DNA of 64,000 bases from Bradyrhizobium sp. CCBAU 53351 (GTDB taxonomy: Bacteria; Pseudomonadota; Alphaproteobacteria; Rhizobiales; Xanthobacteraceae), in assembly GCF_015291745.1 (NCBI RefSeq), contig NZ_CP030059.1, positions 2,011,501 to 2,075,500 on the forward strand, given 5' to 3'. The translations under genes were made by a program, and so were the position numbers. Positions 3,972 to 9,239 of this stretch are shown here, one piece after another (position 1 is the first letter of the stretch; each line of letters begins with the position of its first letter). The notes under the pieces are model-generated. The model ran no database searches. It saw only the letters and a program-made list of their open reading frames with translations, and was not told the origin of the DNA.

Positions 3972-5162
3972 ATGCAAAGCTCCGAGCTCCAGCGCGTCTC
4001 TAACTGGCTGATCGACGGCGCTTGGGCAGCTCAGGAGTCGACCGTAGGGATTGCCGATTTCTGCGAACATCTCGTCGCGGCCGGCCTGCCGCTGACGCGT
4101 TTCGGCATTTTCATCCGTACGCTGCATCCCGAAGTCTTCGGCCGCAACTTCATCTGGCGGCAGGGGGAGGAGGTCGAAGTCGGCACCGTCGATTTCGACA
4201 TCCTGGACACCCCCGAATTCGCCCGCAGTCCGCTCCGCATCGTCTTCGAGCAGGGCATCGAGGTCAGGGGACGCGCAAGCGATCCCCACAGCACGCGGTT
4301 TCCGTTCGTCAACGACATGCGGGCCGAAGGCGCGACCGACTACGTCGCGGTGCCGATGCCGTTTCTCGACGGCTCGGTCCATGCCACGAGCTGGGTGACA
4401 CGGCATCCGGGCGGCTTCAGCGATGACCATATCGCGGCGATCCGGTCCATCGTGACGCCGCTGGCGCGCGTCAGCGAGATCATCACCCTGCGCCGTACCG
4501 CCGAGATGCTGCTCGACACCTATGTGGGCAACCGCGCCGGCGCGCGCATCCTCGGCGGCCAGATCCGCCGTGGCCATAACGACACGATGCAGGCCGCGAT
4601 CTGGCTCTCGGACCTGCGCGGCTTCACCGCGCTCTCGGACCGGCTGCCCGCCGAGACCGTCGTCGAGATCCTCAACCACTATTTCGATTGCCAGGTCACC
4701 GCGATCCGTGGCCATGGCGGCGAGGTACTGAAATTCATGGGCGACGGCCTGCTCGCGGTGTTTCCGATCGACGAATATGTCGGCGACGCCGCTCATGTCT
4801 GCGCGCGCGTGCTGGAAGCGGCGCGCGAATCCCGCGCCAGCGTCGAGGCGCTGGCCTTTCCAGTCGGCGACGCCGTCGAGCGCTTCCGCTTCGGTGTCGC
4901 GCTGCATGTCGGCAACATCCTCTACGGCAATATCGGCGGCGGCAACCGCCTCGACTTCACCTGCATCGGCCCCGCGGTGAACCTTGCCGCAAGGCTTGAG
5001 AAGATCACGGGTCGGCTGGGGCGGACCGTCGTCGCCTCGGAAGGTTTTGCCAATGTCTGCCGGCACGACTGGCACGAGCTCGGCGAATTTCCGATTGCCG
5101 GGTTCTCCAAGGCGCAGCGCGTGTACGGGCTGGCGGAAGAGACGCCGGCGCTGGTCGATTGA
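3972..5162 (+). CDS. Class III adenylate/guanylate cyclase with N-terminal sensor region
   Basis: The 396-residue protein ends in a class III nucleotide cyclase domain (about residues 205-390). The two metal-binding aspartates are seen in WLSDLRGFTALSDRL and FMGDGLLAVF. The transition-state region NRLDFTCIGPAVNLAARLE is intact. Residues 1-195 resemble the regulatory half found in many rhizobial cyclases and show no membrane segment or signal peptide, so the enzyme should be cytoplasmic. It makes cAMP or cGMP; the DFTCIGP substrate region cannot decide between them by eye. Rhizobial genomes carry many such cyclases. Confidence 0.88.
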   Translation: MQSSELQRVSNWLIDGAWAAQESTVGIADFCEHLVAAGLPLTRFGIFIRTLHPEVFGRNFIWRQGEEVEVGTVDFDILDTPEFARSPLRIVFEQGIEVRGRASDPHSTRFPFVNDMRAEGATDYVAVPMPFLDGSVHATSWVTRHPGGFSDDHIAAIRSIVTPLARVSEIITLRRTAEMLLDTYVGNRAGARILGGQIRRGHNDTMQAAIWLSDLRGFTALSDRLPAETVVEILNHYFDCQVTAIRGHGGEVLKFMGDGLLAVFPIDEYVGDAAHVCARVLEAARESRASVEALAFPVGDAVERFRFGVALHVGNILYGNIGGGNRLDFTCIGPAVNLAARLEKITGRLGRTVVASEGFANVCRHDWHELGEFPIAGFSKAQRVYGLAEETPALVD

Positions 5163-5166
5163 GCCG

Positions 5167-5472
5167 CTATTCCTCCGGCTCGGTCGTGAACAGCAGTGGA
5201 TAGCCCTTGGCGCGGCCGGCGTCGGTGGCGCGGGTCGCCTTGGTCTCGGCGACGTCCTTGGTGAATACGGCGACGACGCAGGCCCCTAGCTTGTGGGCGG
5301 TGATCATGACCTTAAAGGCCTGATCCTCCGTCATGCGGAATTCGGCCTTCAGCACCATGGTGACGAATTCGCGCGGCGTGTAGTCATCGTTGATCAGGAT
5401 GACCTTGTGCAGCTTCGGCCGCTCGACCTTGGTCTTCGTCCTGGTTTTCGGCTTGGTAACGGTGTCGTTCAT
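5167..5472 (-). CDS. clpS: ATP-dependent Clp protease adaptor ClpS (ClpS2-like)
   Basis: ClpS binds proteins with N-terminal Leu, Phe, Tyr or Trp and hands them to ClpAP for degradation (the N-degron pathway). The 101-residue protein has the core HKVILINDDYTPREFVTMVL and the C-terminal AHKLGACVVAVFTKDVAETK. In E. coli ClpS the segment reads NDDYTPMEFV, with Met40 at the mouth of the binding pocket. Here that Met is Arg, as I recall for ClpS2 proteins of alphaproteobacteria, which are reported to be more selective. A strong AGGAGG precedes the ATG. No clpA is next to it in this window. Confidence 0.93.
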   Translation of the reverse strand: MNDTVTKPKTRTKTKVERPKLHKVILINDDYTPREFVTMVLKAEFRMTEDQAFKVMITAHKLGACVVAVFTKDVAETKATRATDAGRAKGYPLLFTTEPEE

Positions 5473-5514
5473 TCCGCCTCCTGGAATCGGCGGGCTCGGT
5501 TCCAGCCGCGGCGA

Positions 5515-5856
5515 TCAGCTCGCAGCCTTCTCACCATATTGCAGGACCTGCACCTTCTCCAAGGTGATCAGCCCGCTCGACATCATGCCATCCAGGATGG
5601 GCAGGAATGCGTTGATGTTGTCCTCGCTGTCGACGATCTCGATCAGCAGCGGCAAATCTTCCGAAAGCCGCAGGATCTTCGAGGTGTGCAGCCGGCTCGA
5701 TTTGCCGAAGCCCATGGGCCCGCGCAGCACGGTGGCGCCGGCAAGGTGCCGCTCGCGCGCCGTCATCACGATCGCTTCATAGAGCGGTTTGCCCTCGAAA
5801 TGATCGCTCTCGCCGATGAAAATCCGGAGCGAAACTGCCTGATTGGGAATTTGCAT
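5515..5856 (-). CDS. DUF190 family protein, last gene of the fluoride-resistance operon
   Basis: The 113-residue protein begins MQIPNQAVSLRIFIGESD and contains HLAGATVLRGPMGFGKSSRLH, the hallmark of DUF190, a small PII-like fold. DUF190 genes are often found beside crcB and are thought to be regulatory or accessory to fluoride export, but their biochemical role is not settled. AGGAG lies just before the start. The upstream crcB stop is 2 bases away, so the genes are co-transcribed and probably translationally coupled. A longer in-frame extension upstream overlaps crcB and was rejected. Confidence 0.88.
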   Translation of the reverse strand: MQIPNQAVSLRIFIGESDHFEGKPLYEAIVMTARERHLAGATVLRGPMGFGKSSRLHTSKILRLSEDLPLLIEIVDSEDNINAFLPILDGMMSSGLITLEKVQVLQYGEKAAS

Positions 5857-5858
5857 GG

Positions 5859-6284
5859 TCAGCTCCTTGTCAAGCGGTTGTAGCGGCTCGCCATGATATG
5901 GCCGCTCCATACCGACACCAGCCAGCAGATCACGGAAGCGGCGATGTAGGCGAGCGCCGTGTATTTCATGCCGCCATGGAGCAGGCGGAAGGTCTCCAGG
6001 CTGAAAGTCGAAAAGGTGGTGTAGCCGCCGCAGAACCCGGTCATGACGAACTGCCGGTGCTCGGGCCGCGCCAGCATCCGGCCATCCGGGCCGGTCAGCG
6101 TCGCGTAGAAGCCGATGATCAGCGAGCCCGTCGCGTTGATGAACAGCGTAGCGAAGGGAAAGCCCGGTCCGGTATCGAGTGCAAGCCCGACCAGATAACG
6201 CGTCAGGCCGCCGACGATGCTGCCGGCGGCAACCCAGGCATAGAGCATTGCAGTGCGCCAGCGCTCGGCGGAAGGGGAGTTCAT
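5859..6284 (-). CDS. crcB: Fluoride channel subunit CrcB/Fluc (first of a pair)
   Basis: Fluc proteins are small four-helix membrane proteins that dimerise to form a fluoride channel and so prevent fluoride build-up in the cytoplasm. This 141-residue subunit has the INATGSLIIGF motif with the conserved Asn, and GFCGGYTTFSTFSLETF with both pore phenylalanines (TTFSTF). Met13 is an alternative start. It lies 6 bases after the second crcB gene and 2 bases before the DUF190 gene. Tandem, non-identical crcB genes usually encode a heterodimeric channel. Confidence 0.94.
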   Translation of the reverse strand: MNSPSAERWRTAMLYAWVAAGSIVGGLTRYLVGLALDTGPGFPFATLFINATGSLIIGFYATLTGPDGRMLARPEHRQFVMTGFCGGYTTFSTFSLETFRLLHGGMKYTALAYIAASVICWLVSVWSGHIMASRYNRLTRS

Positions 6285-6290
6285 CAGCCG

Positions 6291-6680
6291 CTAGCCTCCC
6301 AGACGATCCGCAAGGAGGAAGCCGCAACTGACGGCGGCAAGGCACAGTCCGACGGAGAACACGATGTTGCCGAGCGCGTGCATCGGCTCGCCGCTTCGCG
6401 CGAGCGTCAGCGTCTGCAGGCTGAACGAGGACACCGTGGTGTAGCAGCCGAGAAATCCTGTCACCGCGAACAGCCACGGATCGGGCGTGGCGAACACCGA
6501 GCCGGGATGGGTCGCCAGCGCGCCGAAAATGCCGATCAGGAAGGCGCCGGTGACGTTGATGGTCATGGTGCCCCACGGAAAGGTCTCGCCCAGCCGCCGC
6601 GCGATCGCACCGGAGACGAAATAGCGTGTGCAGCCCCCTAGGGCGCTACCGACCACGATCGCGATTGCTCCGCTCAGCAC
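6291..6680 (-). CDS. crcB: Fluoride channel subunit CrcB/Fluc (second of a pair)
   Basis: The best start is the GTG at 6680, preceded by GGGAGG nine bases upstream; it gives a 129-residue, four-helix protein. A longer in-frame extension runs back into the MFS gene and is unlikely. The motif INVTGAFLIG keeps the conserved Asn. The pore motif reads GFLGCYTTVSSFSLQTL, so the first pore Phe of TTFSTF is Val here while the second Phe is kept. Its partner has both, which fits an asymmetric heterodimer. It starts 16 bases after the MFS stop codon. Confidence 0.93.
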   Translation of the reverse strand: MLSGAIAIVVGSALGGCTRYFVSGAIARRLGETFPWGTMTINVTGAFLIGIFGALATHPGSVFATPDPWLFAVTGFLGCYTTVSSFSLQTLTLARSGEPMHALGNIVFSVGLCLAAVSCGFLLADRLGG

Positions 6681-6696
6681 GATGAACAGCCTCCCG

Positions 6697-7908
6697 TCAT
6701 GATTTATCTTCCGCCGCCAGACCGTTGCCGACGGCGAGCAGCCCGATGAGCGCGACCAGCGCGAAGCCGAGTCCCGCAAGGAACGTTCCCGCCGGACCAT
6801 AGACGTCCCACAGCGCGCCCGCGATCACGCTCGCGGCCAGCAGAGCAAGGCCGGTGAACAGATTGAAATAGCCGAACGCGGTGCCGCGCAGGTTCGGCGG
6901 TGCGGCATCGGCGACGAGGGCCGAGAGCAGGCCCTGCGTCAGCCCCATATGCAGTCCCCACAGCACCACACCGAGCGCGAGGCCTGCCAGATTAGGCAGC
7001 AGCGCAAGCGCCAGATCGGCCCCGGCGAGGAAGACGAGCCCGAGCGCGAGCAGGCCGGTCCGGTTGATCCGGTCCGAGAGCACGCCGGCCGGATAGGCCG
7101 ACATGGCGTAGACGATGTTCATCAGCACCAGCACCGCCGGCACCCACATCGCATTCAGCCCGATGTTCTGTGCGCGCAGGATCAGGAAGGCCTCGCTGAA
7201 ACGCGCCAGCGTGAAGATGATTCCGACGGCGACGACGCGCCAATAGACCGCTCCGAGCTGCCGCATCGCGGCGAGGTTGAGCGGATTTTTTGCAGGCTCC
7301 CGGCTTGGGTCCGGCTCCGGCTCGCTCACCGCGAACGCGATCAAGCCGAAGGACAGGAAGGCCGGCAGCACCGCGACCCAGAACACGATGGAAAAATTAT
7401 CTGCCGTCCACCACATCAGGCCGATCGCTACCAGCGGTCCGACGAAGGCGCCGATGGTGTCGAGCGATTGCCGCAGGCCAAAGCTCGCGCCGCGCAGGCC
7501 GACGGGAGCGATATCGGCGATCAGCGCATCGCGCGGCGCGCCGCGAATGCCCTTGCCCACGCGGTCGATGAACCGCGCCGCCACCAGCCATCCGACGCTG
7601 GGCGCAAGCGGGAACAGCGGCTTGGTCAATGCGGCGAGGCCATAGCCGAGTGCGGCGAGCAGCTTGCGGCGGCCGAGCCAGTCCGACAGCGCGCCGGAGA
7701 AGATCTTGGTGATCGAGGCGGTCGCCTCCGCAATGCCCTCGATGAAGCCGACGGTCAGTGTCGAAGCGCCGAGCACGGTGACGAGATAGACCGGCAGCAG
7801 CGCGTGGATCATCTCGGAGGAGATGTCCATCAGCATCGAGACGAAGCCGAGCACCCAGATTCCTCTCGGTAGCCCGCTACGTGCGGCATTCGATGTCGTC
7901 GTCGTCAC
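6697..7908 (-). CDS. MFS transporter, first gene of the riboswitch-controlled fluoride operon
   Basis: The 403-residue protein has about 12 hydrophobic segments. After membrane helix 2 it has the MFS loop SGALSDWLGRRKLLAALGYG, and after the central loop (EPEPDPSREPAKNP) a second six-helix half. I chose the GTG at 7908 because GGAGAAGGCG lies just upstream. It leads the crcB-crcB-DUF190 genes with short spacings, so the riboswitch in its leader controls all four. The substrate is unknown. By position, export of fluoride-related ions or repair of their effects is an inference only. Confidence 0.88.
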   Translation of the reverse strand: MTTTTSNAARSGLPRGIWVLGFVSMLMDISSEMIHALLPVYLVTVLGASTLTVGFIEGIAEATASITKIFSGALSDWLGRRKLLAALGYGLAALTKPLFPLAPSVGWLVAARFIDRVGKGIRGAPRDALIADIAPVGLRGASFGLRQSLDTIGAFVGPLVAIGLMWWTADNFSIVFWVAVLPAFLSFGLIAFAVSEPEPDPSREPAKNPLNLAAMRQLGAVYWRVVAVGIIFTLARFSEAFLILRAQNIGLNAMWVPAVLVLMNIVYAMSAYPAGVLSDRINRTGLLALGLVFLAGADLALALLPNLAGLALGVVLWGLHMGLTQGLLSALVADAAPPNLRGTAFGYFNLFTGLALLAASVIAGALWDVYGPAGTFLAGLGFALVALIGLLAVGNGLAAEDKS

Positions 7909-7942
7909 GTCTTCGCCTTCTCCTGGCCTTGCACCAGACAAC

Positions 7943-7966
7943 AAAAAACCCGCCACCGGCGGGTTT
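7943..7966 (-). terminator. Intrinsic terminator of the fluoride riboswitch (expression platform)
   Basis: On the minus strand a CCCGCC/GGCGGG stem with a GGT or similar small loop, extendable by flanking A-T pairs, is followed by six T residues. It lies between the aptamer and the MFS start codon, 34 bases before the latter. That position makes it the regulated attenuator of the operon and not the end of a gene. Confidence 0.85.
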
Positions 7967-8006
7967 GTCCATGCTCCCGCCGAAGGCAGAGGCTCAAAGA
8001 TTGCCC

Positions 8007-8095
8007 CTCCTCAAGCAGGAGTCATCAGCCCACTACGGTCCAAGATTGCGGGTCAAGGCCGCCGGGCGGTTGTCGGGGGACTCCATCCCCATCTG
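8007..8095 (-). ncRNA. Fluoride riboswitch (crcB motif) aptamer
   Basis: On the minus strand GGGG-AUGGAGUC-CCCC (8090-8075) forms the first stem with the family loop. AACCGCCC follows at 8071-8064, and then GGGCUGAUGACUCCUGC at 8031-8015. The last element pairs with CCGCCC and places GACUCC (8023-8018) against the loop GGAGUC (8084-8079), giving the long-range pseudoknot of fluoride aptamers. The pattern matches the well-known Thermotoga example segment by segment, with a longer (about 32-base) insert in the second hairpin. An alternative hairpin CUCCU/AGGAG (8021-8007) would capture the pseudoknot strand and may form without ligand. The downstream genes, two crcB and a DUF190, agree with the call. 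Confidence 0.92.
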
Positions 8096-8156
8096 TGCGG
8101 CCAACCTAGCATGGAAATCGCTTGGAACAAGTGGCGGGCGCGTCTCGGCCGGCGCC

Positions 8157-8200
8157 GTCATTCGGGATTCGGCTCTTCGAGTCGCCCCGGAATGACAGTG
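8157..8200 (-). repeat. Short REP-like palindrome (cattccggg family)
   Basis: The ends gtcattc and gaatgac are inverted copies, and the inner part carries cggctcttcgag. Read on the minus strand it begins tcattccggggcg, like the copies at 2631 and 28063. It lies just upstream of the riboswitch leader and outside any gene. Confidence 0.7.
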
Positions 8201-8375
8201 CTTATGATCGCGCCTGTTCCGGCAGCGCAAGCGCAACATGGCGGCAGCATTGCGCAAAGCGCGCGTCCTTCTAACCCGCAGATTCCTAACTTGAATGTGA
8301 AGCGCAAGCGATCTTCGCGCTTTGCGGCAAGGCGATTGCATGTCACCATCGCATCATACGACGGGAGAGGCTGCG

Positions 8376-9239
8376 ATGCGCTTGCTGTTCTCGATCGGGG
8401 CTGTGCTGGCGGCCGGCATGTTTGCCGGAGGAGACGTCGCGGGCATCGCGGCGCCAGGACCTAAATTCGAGCCGCCCAAAAGTCAGCCACATAGGTCGGC
8501 GGCCGACAGAGACGCGCAGACGGTTGACGTCGAGCTGGTCCTCGCTGTCGACGTGTCCTACTCCATGGACATGGACGAGCTCGCGATCCAGCGCGAGGGC
8601 TATGCTCAGGCGATCCAGTCGAAGGAGTTCCTCCAGGCCCTGAAGCTCGGCCCGAATGGACGGATCGCGGTGACCTATTTCGAGTGGGCCGCGTCCAGCG
8701 ACCAGAAGATCATCATCCCCTGGCGGCTGGTCGATGGTCCTGAAACGGCGGATGCGGTCGCCGCCGAGATCATGAAGACGCCGATCCGGCGCGCCTCGCG
8801 CACCTCGATCTCGGGCGCGATCACCTTCGCGATGCCGCTGTTCGAAGAGGATCCCTATCGGGGCCTGCGCCGTGTGATCGACATTTCCGGCGACGGCCCA
8901 AACAACAATGGCGGCCCGGTCACGGTGGCGCGCGATGCCGCGCTCGAGAAGGGCATCGTCATCAACGGCCTGCCGATCATGGTCAAGGAGCCGTCCTATT
9001 CGACCATGGATATCGACAATCTCGATTTCTACTACGAGGACTGCGTCATCGGCGGCCCTGGCTCCTTCGTCATCACGATCAAGGACCGCGACAAATTCAA
9101 GGAAGCGATCCGCACCAAGCTGCTGATGGAGGTCGCCGGCCGCACGCCTGAGCGTCCGGTGATGCGGGTCGCCGACAAGGAGCCGCGCGTCAACTGCCTG
9201 ATCGGCGAAAAGATCTGGTCGGACCGCTGGGGGCGCTGA
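8376..9239 (+). CDS. DUF1194 family exported protein with a von Willebrand A-like fold
   Basis: The 287-residue protein starts with a signal peptide (MRLLFSIGAVLAAGMFAGG). Mature sequence follows with VELVLAVDVSYSMDMDE, a DxSxS metal-ion-dependent adhesion site of VWA domains. RVIDISGDGPNNNGG and IVINGLPIMV are typical of DUF1194, a family I know from alphaproteobacteria. I chose the ATG at 8376, which has GGGAGAGG in front, over upstream in-frame starts that would bury the signal peptide. The function is unknown; a periplasmic protein-binding role is an inference from the fold. Confidence 0.85.
   Translation: MRLLFSIGAVLAAGMFAGGDVAGIAAPGPKFEPPKSQPHRSAADRDAQTVDVELVLAVDVSYSMDMDELAIQREGYAQAIQSKEFLQALKLGPNGRIAVTYFEWAASSDQKIIIPWRLVDGPETADAVAAEIMKTPIRRASRTSISGAITFAMPLFEEDPYRGLRRVIDISGDGPNNNGGPVTVARDAALEKGIVINGLPIMVKEPSYSTMDIDNLDFYYEDCVIGGPGSFVITIKDRDKFKEAIRTKLLMEVAGRTPERPVMRVADKEPRVNCLIGEKIWSDRWGR

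Follow-up and report, generated by a model that had tools for sequence, protein, structure and literature searches.

Riboswitches which follow a terminator, antiterminator and anti-antiterminator logic feature three-part pairing, in which the alternatives are mutually exclusive. CrcB (Fluc) channels are expected to work as heterodimers when formed by two subunits of fixed, opposite topology. In the covariation model published for the full fluoride switch, as described in the available sections of PMC13273304, the terminator directly overlaps the aptamer, and the alignments used were restricted in post-aptamer length. The accessible sections of a 2024 review (PMC11139923) ascribe fluoride resistance to Fluc and CLC-F exporters, to enzymes and to ion balance. 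They list Na+/H+ antiporters, pyrophosphatase, enolase and formate hydrogen lyase as partners of the riboswitch, and report that other ion transporters occur in fluoride-related operons; the terms 'mfs', 'duf190' and 'chromate' occur 0 times in them. In excerpts of PMC11477304 an MFS gene is found under an FMN riboswitch, and a fluoride riboswitch precedes CLC and Na+/H+ antiporter genes. In those of PMC5756330 a fluoride riboswitch is located before crcB, and a remark on an antiterminator concerns a different riboswitch. Excerpts of these two papers and of PMC12595759 hold nothing on point about MFS genes under fluoride riboswitches or antiterminator relays. Neither an MFS gene under a fluoride riboswitch nor an antiterminator relay for this riboswitch was found in the literature searched, which is weak evidence because the search was confined to open-licence papers. 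The locus described here has the first of these features, and probably the second.

The riboswitch and its operon

The window is the whole stretch of 64,000 nucleotides of Bradyrhizobium sp. CCBAU 53351 that was analyzed. The leader and the genes it precedes reside on the minus strand. A match to RF01734 was identified by cmscan at 8009-8099 (49.7 bits, gathering cut-off 34, E 9.2e-11), and is the only one above cut-off in the 8.34 Mb, two-contig genome. An earlier, sequence-only reading had assigned the leader to the fluoride aptamers, and the Rfam search that it proposed gave this significant match. The P1 stem and the pseudoknot claimed in that reading are both present. P1 (8075-8090) is formed by GGGG (8087-8090) and CCCC (8075-8078), paired in 252/252 cells of an alignment of 63 leaders. 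The six pseudoknot pairs join GGAGUC (8079-8084) to GACUCC (8018-8023), and are found in 377/378 cells. By these sequence criteria the leader is confirmed as a genuine fluoride riboswitch of known type, endowed with an ordinary aptamer, and makes the operon a candidate for a fluoride response.

The intrinsic terminator (7943-7966), also anticipated with its six Ts, has a stem of 9 pairs and a loop of 3 at 7946-7966, and a T run at 7943-7948; 557/565 cells are paired in the 63 leaders. The core of its 5' arm, CCCGCC, is located at 7958-7963. Aptamer and terminator do not overlap directly: the pseudoknot strand reaches to 8018, the terminator stem starts only at 7966, and a third element, hereafter the mediator strand, lies between them. 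No sigma-70-type promoter was found at the locus.

The gene next to the terminator (6697-7908), 34 bases downstream of the T run, starts with GTG and encodes an MFS transporter of 403 aa (PF07690, 132.6 bits over 33.4), at the leading place given to it by the sequence-only reading. It is followed by two crcB genes, at 6291-6680 (GTG start; PF02537, 88.6 bits; NF010799, 215.3 over 129) and 5859-6284 (PF02537, 95.4 bits), by a gene encoding a DUF190 protein at 5515-5856 (PF02641, 137.4 bits), and by a gene encoding the ClpS adaptor at 5167-5472 (PF02617, NF009564). Gaps of 16, 6, 2 and 42 bases separate the five genes. Both CrcB proteins are over the PF02537 cut-off of 32.9 and the TIGR00494 cut-off of 80.45 (89.5 and 84.1, respectively). 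They are 40% identical to each other, and are the only PF02537 proteins in the genome. Charge counts gave no clear answer on their topology, and a hydropathy scan called just 4 and 3 helices. The order MFS, crcB, crcB, DUF190 corresponds to the four-gene operon originally proposed, and the operon may be longer. No terminator-like site besides the riboswitch's own was detected in a scan of 5000-8500, so ClpS may share the transcript, which may comprise five genes. On the opposite side of the riboswitch, a divergent gene (8322-9239) encodes a DUF1194 protein with weak von Willebrand A similarity.

In a genus sample of 195 genomes, 146 match RF01734 (E 0.001 or better), and 146, making up a different set, contain a relative of the MFS at E 1e-90 or better. 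MFS proteins of at least 84% identity were found in 98 of the sampled genomes, 97 of which have an RF01734 match. The exception is genome G584 (L368:1250-4420), which retains MFS, both crcB, DUF190, clpS and the terminator but has lost both aptamer and mediator. What precedes the deletion resembles the pre-aptamer sequence in the window (TTCCATGCTAGG), and is perhaps the promoter.

The 42 nearest named loci (MFS 84-95% identical) are titled Bradyrhizobium, in 41 cases, or Bradyrhizobiaceae, in one. An aptamer is located upstream in 41 (37 recognized by pattern, 4 by cmscan); the remaining contig starts 109 bases ahead of the MFS gene. A crcB gene is kept downstream of the MFS gene in 42/42 loci, and ClpS follows in 41/42. 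Two crcB and DUF190 are found in 30 loci, a single different crcB (41-44% identical to CrcB2) and no DUF190 in 11, and one locus is cut off by the contig end. As both types of exporter set occur, in 30 and 11 loci, the MFS remains the first gene while the exporter genes vary. Sequence comparisons thus indicate that the association of the MFS with the fluoride operon is real, and common to most of a genus.

Different arrangements have been noted elsewhere. In Bradyrhizobium lablabi (L195:5667-7176) an MFS gene (79%) resides directly behind clpS; crcB and DUF190 were not found, and no RF01734 match occurs in 13 kb, a picture consistent with rearrangement or loss of the surrounding operon. A ChrB-MFS pair, an RND pump, and a fluoride riboswitch with crcB coexist in one stretch of a conjugative Bradyrhizobium plasmid (L234:7606-14861), the riboswitch (54.9 bits) being located 4.7 kb behind the MFS gene. 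Fluoride riboswitch matches number 20 in genome G317, 11 in G523 and 8 in G150, possibly fluoride- or organofluorine-adapted organisms. Second aptamers suggested by a loose pattern in loci L189 and L190 were left unconfirmed by cmscan.

Predicted pairing of the mediator strand

The alignment is made by 63 distinct leaders, derived from 80 loci accepted by an aptamer pattern. All but one come from Bradyrhizobium or Bradyrhizobiaceae loci; the other (L078, genome G367) belongs to another genus of the family. Seven more loci, whose MFS is at least 80% identical, are not in the alignment. The pattern missed L154, L127, L160, L145, L168 and L175, in all of which cmscan finds the aptamer, and the contig of L169 begins too near.

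The mediator GGCGGGAGCAU (7971-7981) is almost invariant among the 63 leaders. Its partner in the aptamer, AUG-A-CUCCUGCU (8014-8025), contains part of the pseudoknot strand, so that GACUCC belongs both to the pseudoknot and to the mediator/aptamer helix. All 11 pairs of this helix are found in 62/63 leaders, and the hairpin enclosed by it (7983-8012) is variable in sequence. The GGCGGG part of the mediator (7976-7981) may alternatively pair with CCCGCC in the terminator 5' arm, and all 6 pairs of this antiterminator are found in 63/63 leaders. As the mediator hardly varies within Bradyrhizobium, there is almost no covariation, and within-genus pairing consequently rests on conservation and on energies.

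The minimum-energy fold of the window leader features the mediator/aptamer helix and the terminator (z -3.53 versus shuffles). Folds of the 63 leaders were compared by scoring a helix as formed from 5 pairs up. Free full-length leaders form the mediator/aptamer helix in 63/63 cases and the terminator in 61/63. Transcripts ending just past CCCGCC form the mediator/aptamer helix in 61/63 and the antiterminator in 1/63; when both pseudoknot strands are forced open, the antiterminator is formed by 55/63 of the same short transcripts. In full-length leaders with the pseudoknot strands blocked, the terminator is still formed in 50/63, the antiterminator in 9/63. As these blocked leaders mostly form the terminator, a relay of this kind must trap the antiterminator before the second terminator arm is made.

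An ATG located within the mediator region (7970-7972) opens a frame running through the terminator, which in many leaders encodes a short peptide ending at TGA. An upstream open reading frame was discarded as the cause of mediator conservation. The frame stops after two codons in L078 (the same place as L258), and RNA pairing is for this reason the preferred explanation. Judged from sequence, the finding that a conserved strand, the mediator GGCGGGAGCAU, is a candidate competitor for the aptamer strand appears more informative on mechanism than the MFS association; the sequence-only reading had not noticed this strand.

The direction of switching and the order of folding that we infer are those of an ON-type fluoride riboswitch that acts on transcription through a relay expression platform. 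In the absence of fluoride, the aptamer 3' strand (AUGACUCCUGCU) would pair with the mediator, and CCCGCC would be left free. The terminator would form, and transcription would end before the MFS gene. Binding of fluoride, as a magnesium complex, would let the pseudoknot retain GACUCC and set the mediator free. The freed mediator would seize CCCGCC before the second terminator arm exists, and the block of the terminator would allow transcription of MFS-crcB-crcB-DUF190, and perhaps of clpS. Fluoride export is assigned to the two CrcB proteins, possibly joined as a heterodimer. The MFS, whose source family is found elsewhere behind ChrB genes, would most likely be an efflux pump for something toxic or accumulating during fluoride stress. 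We regard this reading as a whole, relay ON switch, CrcB export and stress-efflux pump together, as probable.

Comparable leaders were searched among 142 loci around RF01734 matches (89 order, family or genus samples, 34 class or phylum samples, 19 chosen by hand). Nine have no aptamer by pattern, 95 no terminator, and 38 a separate terminator. Direct overlap was scored in 0/142 by a classifier that was run without a known direct-overlap switch as positive control. An aptamer-mediator duplex of at least 7 pairs is found in 35/38 separate-terminator leaders, 33 of which are distinct. Six contiguous pairs between mediator and terminator arm are found in 23/33 distinct leaders and, outside Bradyrhizobium, in 17/26. 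The mediator/arm duplex measures on average 5.45 pairs, versus 5.14 when arms are swapped among leaders (8/2000 as high) and 4.31 when mediators are shuffled (0/500 as high). Swaps reach as high in 38/5000 trials when only one MFS-type Bradyrhizobium leader is kept, and in 170/5000 when five terminators judged doubtful afterwards are dropped as well; as the leaders are related, none of these figures is a true probability. Since comparable complementarity occurs in 17/26 leaders outside the genus, the predicted relay is not peculiar to the MFS operon, and relay-type complementarity seems, from these sequences, not to be unique to it. In three fluoride switches of the same genus that lack a terminator (L266, L267, L269), a strand like GUAGGAGCAUG is complementary to the aptamer strand and resembles a ribosome site hidden by the aptamer.

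Two other ways of switching have been weighed against the transcriptional relay. Control might be chiefly translational, with a terminator that is constitutive or contributes little. The 95 sampled loci with no terminator in the scan speak for such a mode, and so does a GUAGGAG-like strand, complementary in some leaders to that of the aptamer, which could be a hidden ribosome site. At this locus, by contrast, a terminator is interposed between the mediator and the MFS start codon, and the mediator is not located at the ribosome site, which makes translational control unlikely. The sequence-only reading had favoured a hairpin, CUCCU/AGGAG, which alone would capture the pseudoknot strand. This hairpin occurs in the window sequence and is complete in 29/63 leaders, but in 31/63 its second pair is U-U, and the minimum-energy fold favours the mediator helix. 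As the hairpin also leaves unexplained both the near-invariance of GGCGGGAGCAU and any link to the terminator, it is a very improbable basis for the switch, and this part of the earlier proposal is abandoned. The relay is retained as the preferred mechanism.

Family and neighbours of the MFS protein

In this genome the MFS gives a single match at E 1e-60 or better. At E 0.01 the protein matches 24 NCBIfam families, none above its own cut-off, and no substrate name is obtained from them. The best PDB sequence match is NorA (E 1.5e-6). An AlphaFold2 model derived from 14 sequences has a pLDDT of 86.1, and its comparison by Foldseek with MFS structures gives TM values per query of 0.65-0.79 among the 50 matches listed. 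These model-based matches support an MFS fold and name no substrate.

Relatives (330 aligned residues and 45% identity or more) were collected from 226 loci, and correspond to 197 distinct proteins. All 66 distinct MFS of at least 84% identity adjoin crcB or DUF190. Among distinct relatives below 84% identity, 5/131 adjoin one of these genes, and 126/131 have no such neighbour in the stretch seen, where more distant neighbours would be missed because some loci are flanked by only 1-1.5 kb. The five are L193 and L264 of Bradyrhizobium, L258 of genome G367, where the order riboswitch, MFS, crcB, crcB, DUF190 is found in another genus (aptamer 52 bits), L232 of Alsobacter soli (MFS-DUF190-crcB), and L243 of genome G207 (MFS-DUF190-crcB-crcB). 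L232 and L243 gave no RF01734 match at E 0.5 by cmscan. Pattern matches upstream of the MFS in L083, L094, L205, L218 and L236 were not confirmed by cmscan, and have been dropped from the neighbour count.

A ChrB gene directly precedes the MFS gene, on the same strand, in 23 of the 126 relatives without crcB or DUF190; two ChrB genes checked encode ChrB_N without ChrB_C. The ChrB_C gene of the Bradyrhizobium genome studied here is 1.2 Mb off. A gene encoding a PAP2 phosphatase is located downstream of the MFS in 12/131 relatives below 84% identity, and in 7/13 named ChrB-linked loci. By reading of the sequences, P-type ATPase genes are found near 8/126 relatives and RND pump genes near 7/126. 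A plasmid of Neotabrizicola carries a sul1 RNA (RF03058, 74.5 bits) immediately ahead of a SulP transporter gene (L236:13262-13319).

Clustering reduced the 197 proteins to 125, from which a quick tree was made. In this tree, fluoride-linked MFS of Bradyrhizobium and G367 group on one branch (SH-aLRT 87), which includes three non-fluoride Bradyrhizobium rows (L194, L195, L330); L232 and L243 fall on other branches. The fluoride label changes 2 times among labelled rows, versus a shuffled mean of 9.7, and starred branches are compatible with a single origin over all labelled rows. We read the tree as one old recruitment with losses, and probably two further associations.

Residues were compared in 69 fluoride-linked, 23 ChrB-linked and 84 other MFS proteins. 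Invariant in all three sets are D28, E32, E57, E61, D76, R81, K82, R112, D115, R116, K119, R126, D127, R146, D150, R236 and E239. Positions specific to the fluoride branch number 15. Seven of them, at 199-224, map in the model to the central loop and the beginning of the helix after it; three are close to the termini, and the others are L98, A295, Y347, F351 and L380. Charges are gained at D200, R203 and R224, and arginine is lost at 199 and 217. As most conserved charged positions are common to relatives, the MFS is likely to transport a substrate similar in kind to theirs, and this activity would have gained value when fluoride was a stress; given the changes at 203 and 224, its preference may still have been altered.

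A new role of the transporter in fluoride biology had been put forward in the sequence-only reading, and at its strongest this would mean that the MFS itself exports fluoride, as a third kind of fluoride exporter. It is the first gene under the switch and a steady member of the operon, it adjoins DUF190-crcB also in Alsobacter soli and G207, and charges differ in the fluoride branch as listed above. Fluoride export is however already supplied by the two CrcB; 126/131 relatives have neither crcB nor DUF190 as neighbours, 23 being placed behind ChrB; charged residues that never vary in ChrB-linked and other members do not vary here either, and of the 15 branch-specific positions 7 lie at 199-224 and 3 near the termini. 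Export of fluoride by the MFS is hence the least probable of the readings considered. A dedicated fluoride transporter is not supported by the sequences, because most invariant charged residues are common to non-fluoride relatives, and the recruitment of a stress-efflux pump into the response to fluoride seems likelier. A fluoride-related role in this wider sense is plausible, as the gene stays first, G367 has the same order, and two further lineages carry it beside DUF190-crcB; the part of the claim that is given up is fluoride-specific transport. Closer to the data, though still doubtful, is the view that the MFS is a passenger, fixed by common descent and with no part in fluoride tolerance. 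Because the fluoride members of Bradyrhizobium and G367 share one branch, in which three non-fluoride Bradyrhizobium rows are nested, the association there may be one event followed by losses, and the starred branches allow a single origin over all labelled rows. A passenger would not be expected to stay first while the exporters downstream vary (30 loci versus 11), nor does it fit L232 and L243, which fall on other branches and where the family adjoins DUF190-crcB in a different gene order. A bolder variant of the stress-efflux reading is rather unlikely as formulated, if a little less so than translational control. ChrB-linked MFS would constitute an unrecognised stress-efflux family, the fluoride branch would remove fluoride-derived species beyond the reach of CrcB, such as a complex of metal and fluoride, or a fluoro-oxyanion similar to sulfate or chromate, and the riboswitch would have replaced the ChrB regulator. 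For the recruited stress-efflux pump, a transporter steady in the Bradyrhizobium fluoride operon and ChrB-linked elsewhere hints at a second toxic species, or at a problem of ion balance, under fluoride. The association is directly testable by knockout in a tractable soil bacterium.

Comparison with known systems

NorA, MFSD10 and YajR have the MFS fold in common with the transporter (Foldseek TM per query 0.68-0.79); at about 20% identity they are uninformative on substrate. Closer are the ChrB-linked MFS of alphaproteobacterial plasmids and chromosomes, which are 60-77% identical to it and have the invariant charged residues in common. They follow a ChrB gene; this MFS has a fluoride riboswitch in front instead. 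As members of the Fluc/CrcB channels (PF02537, TIGR00494), the two adjacent paralogues are over curated cut-offs and show nothing unusual.

With the fluoride riboswitches (crcB RNA motif, RF01734) the leader has in common aptamer sequence, P1, pseudoknot, terminator and a downstream crcB. With riboswitches of the terminator, antiterminator and anti-antiterminator type it has in common the predicted exclusive three-part pairing. It differs from the full-switch model, as presented in the available sections of PMC13273304, in that its terminator stands apart from the aptamer, to which it is linked by a mediator strand. The relay is thus a defined alternative to the direct-overlap mechanism of that model, and is testable by in vitro transcription.
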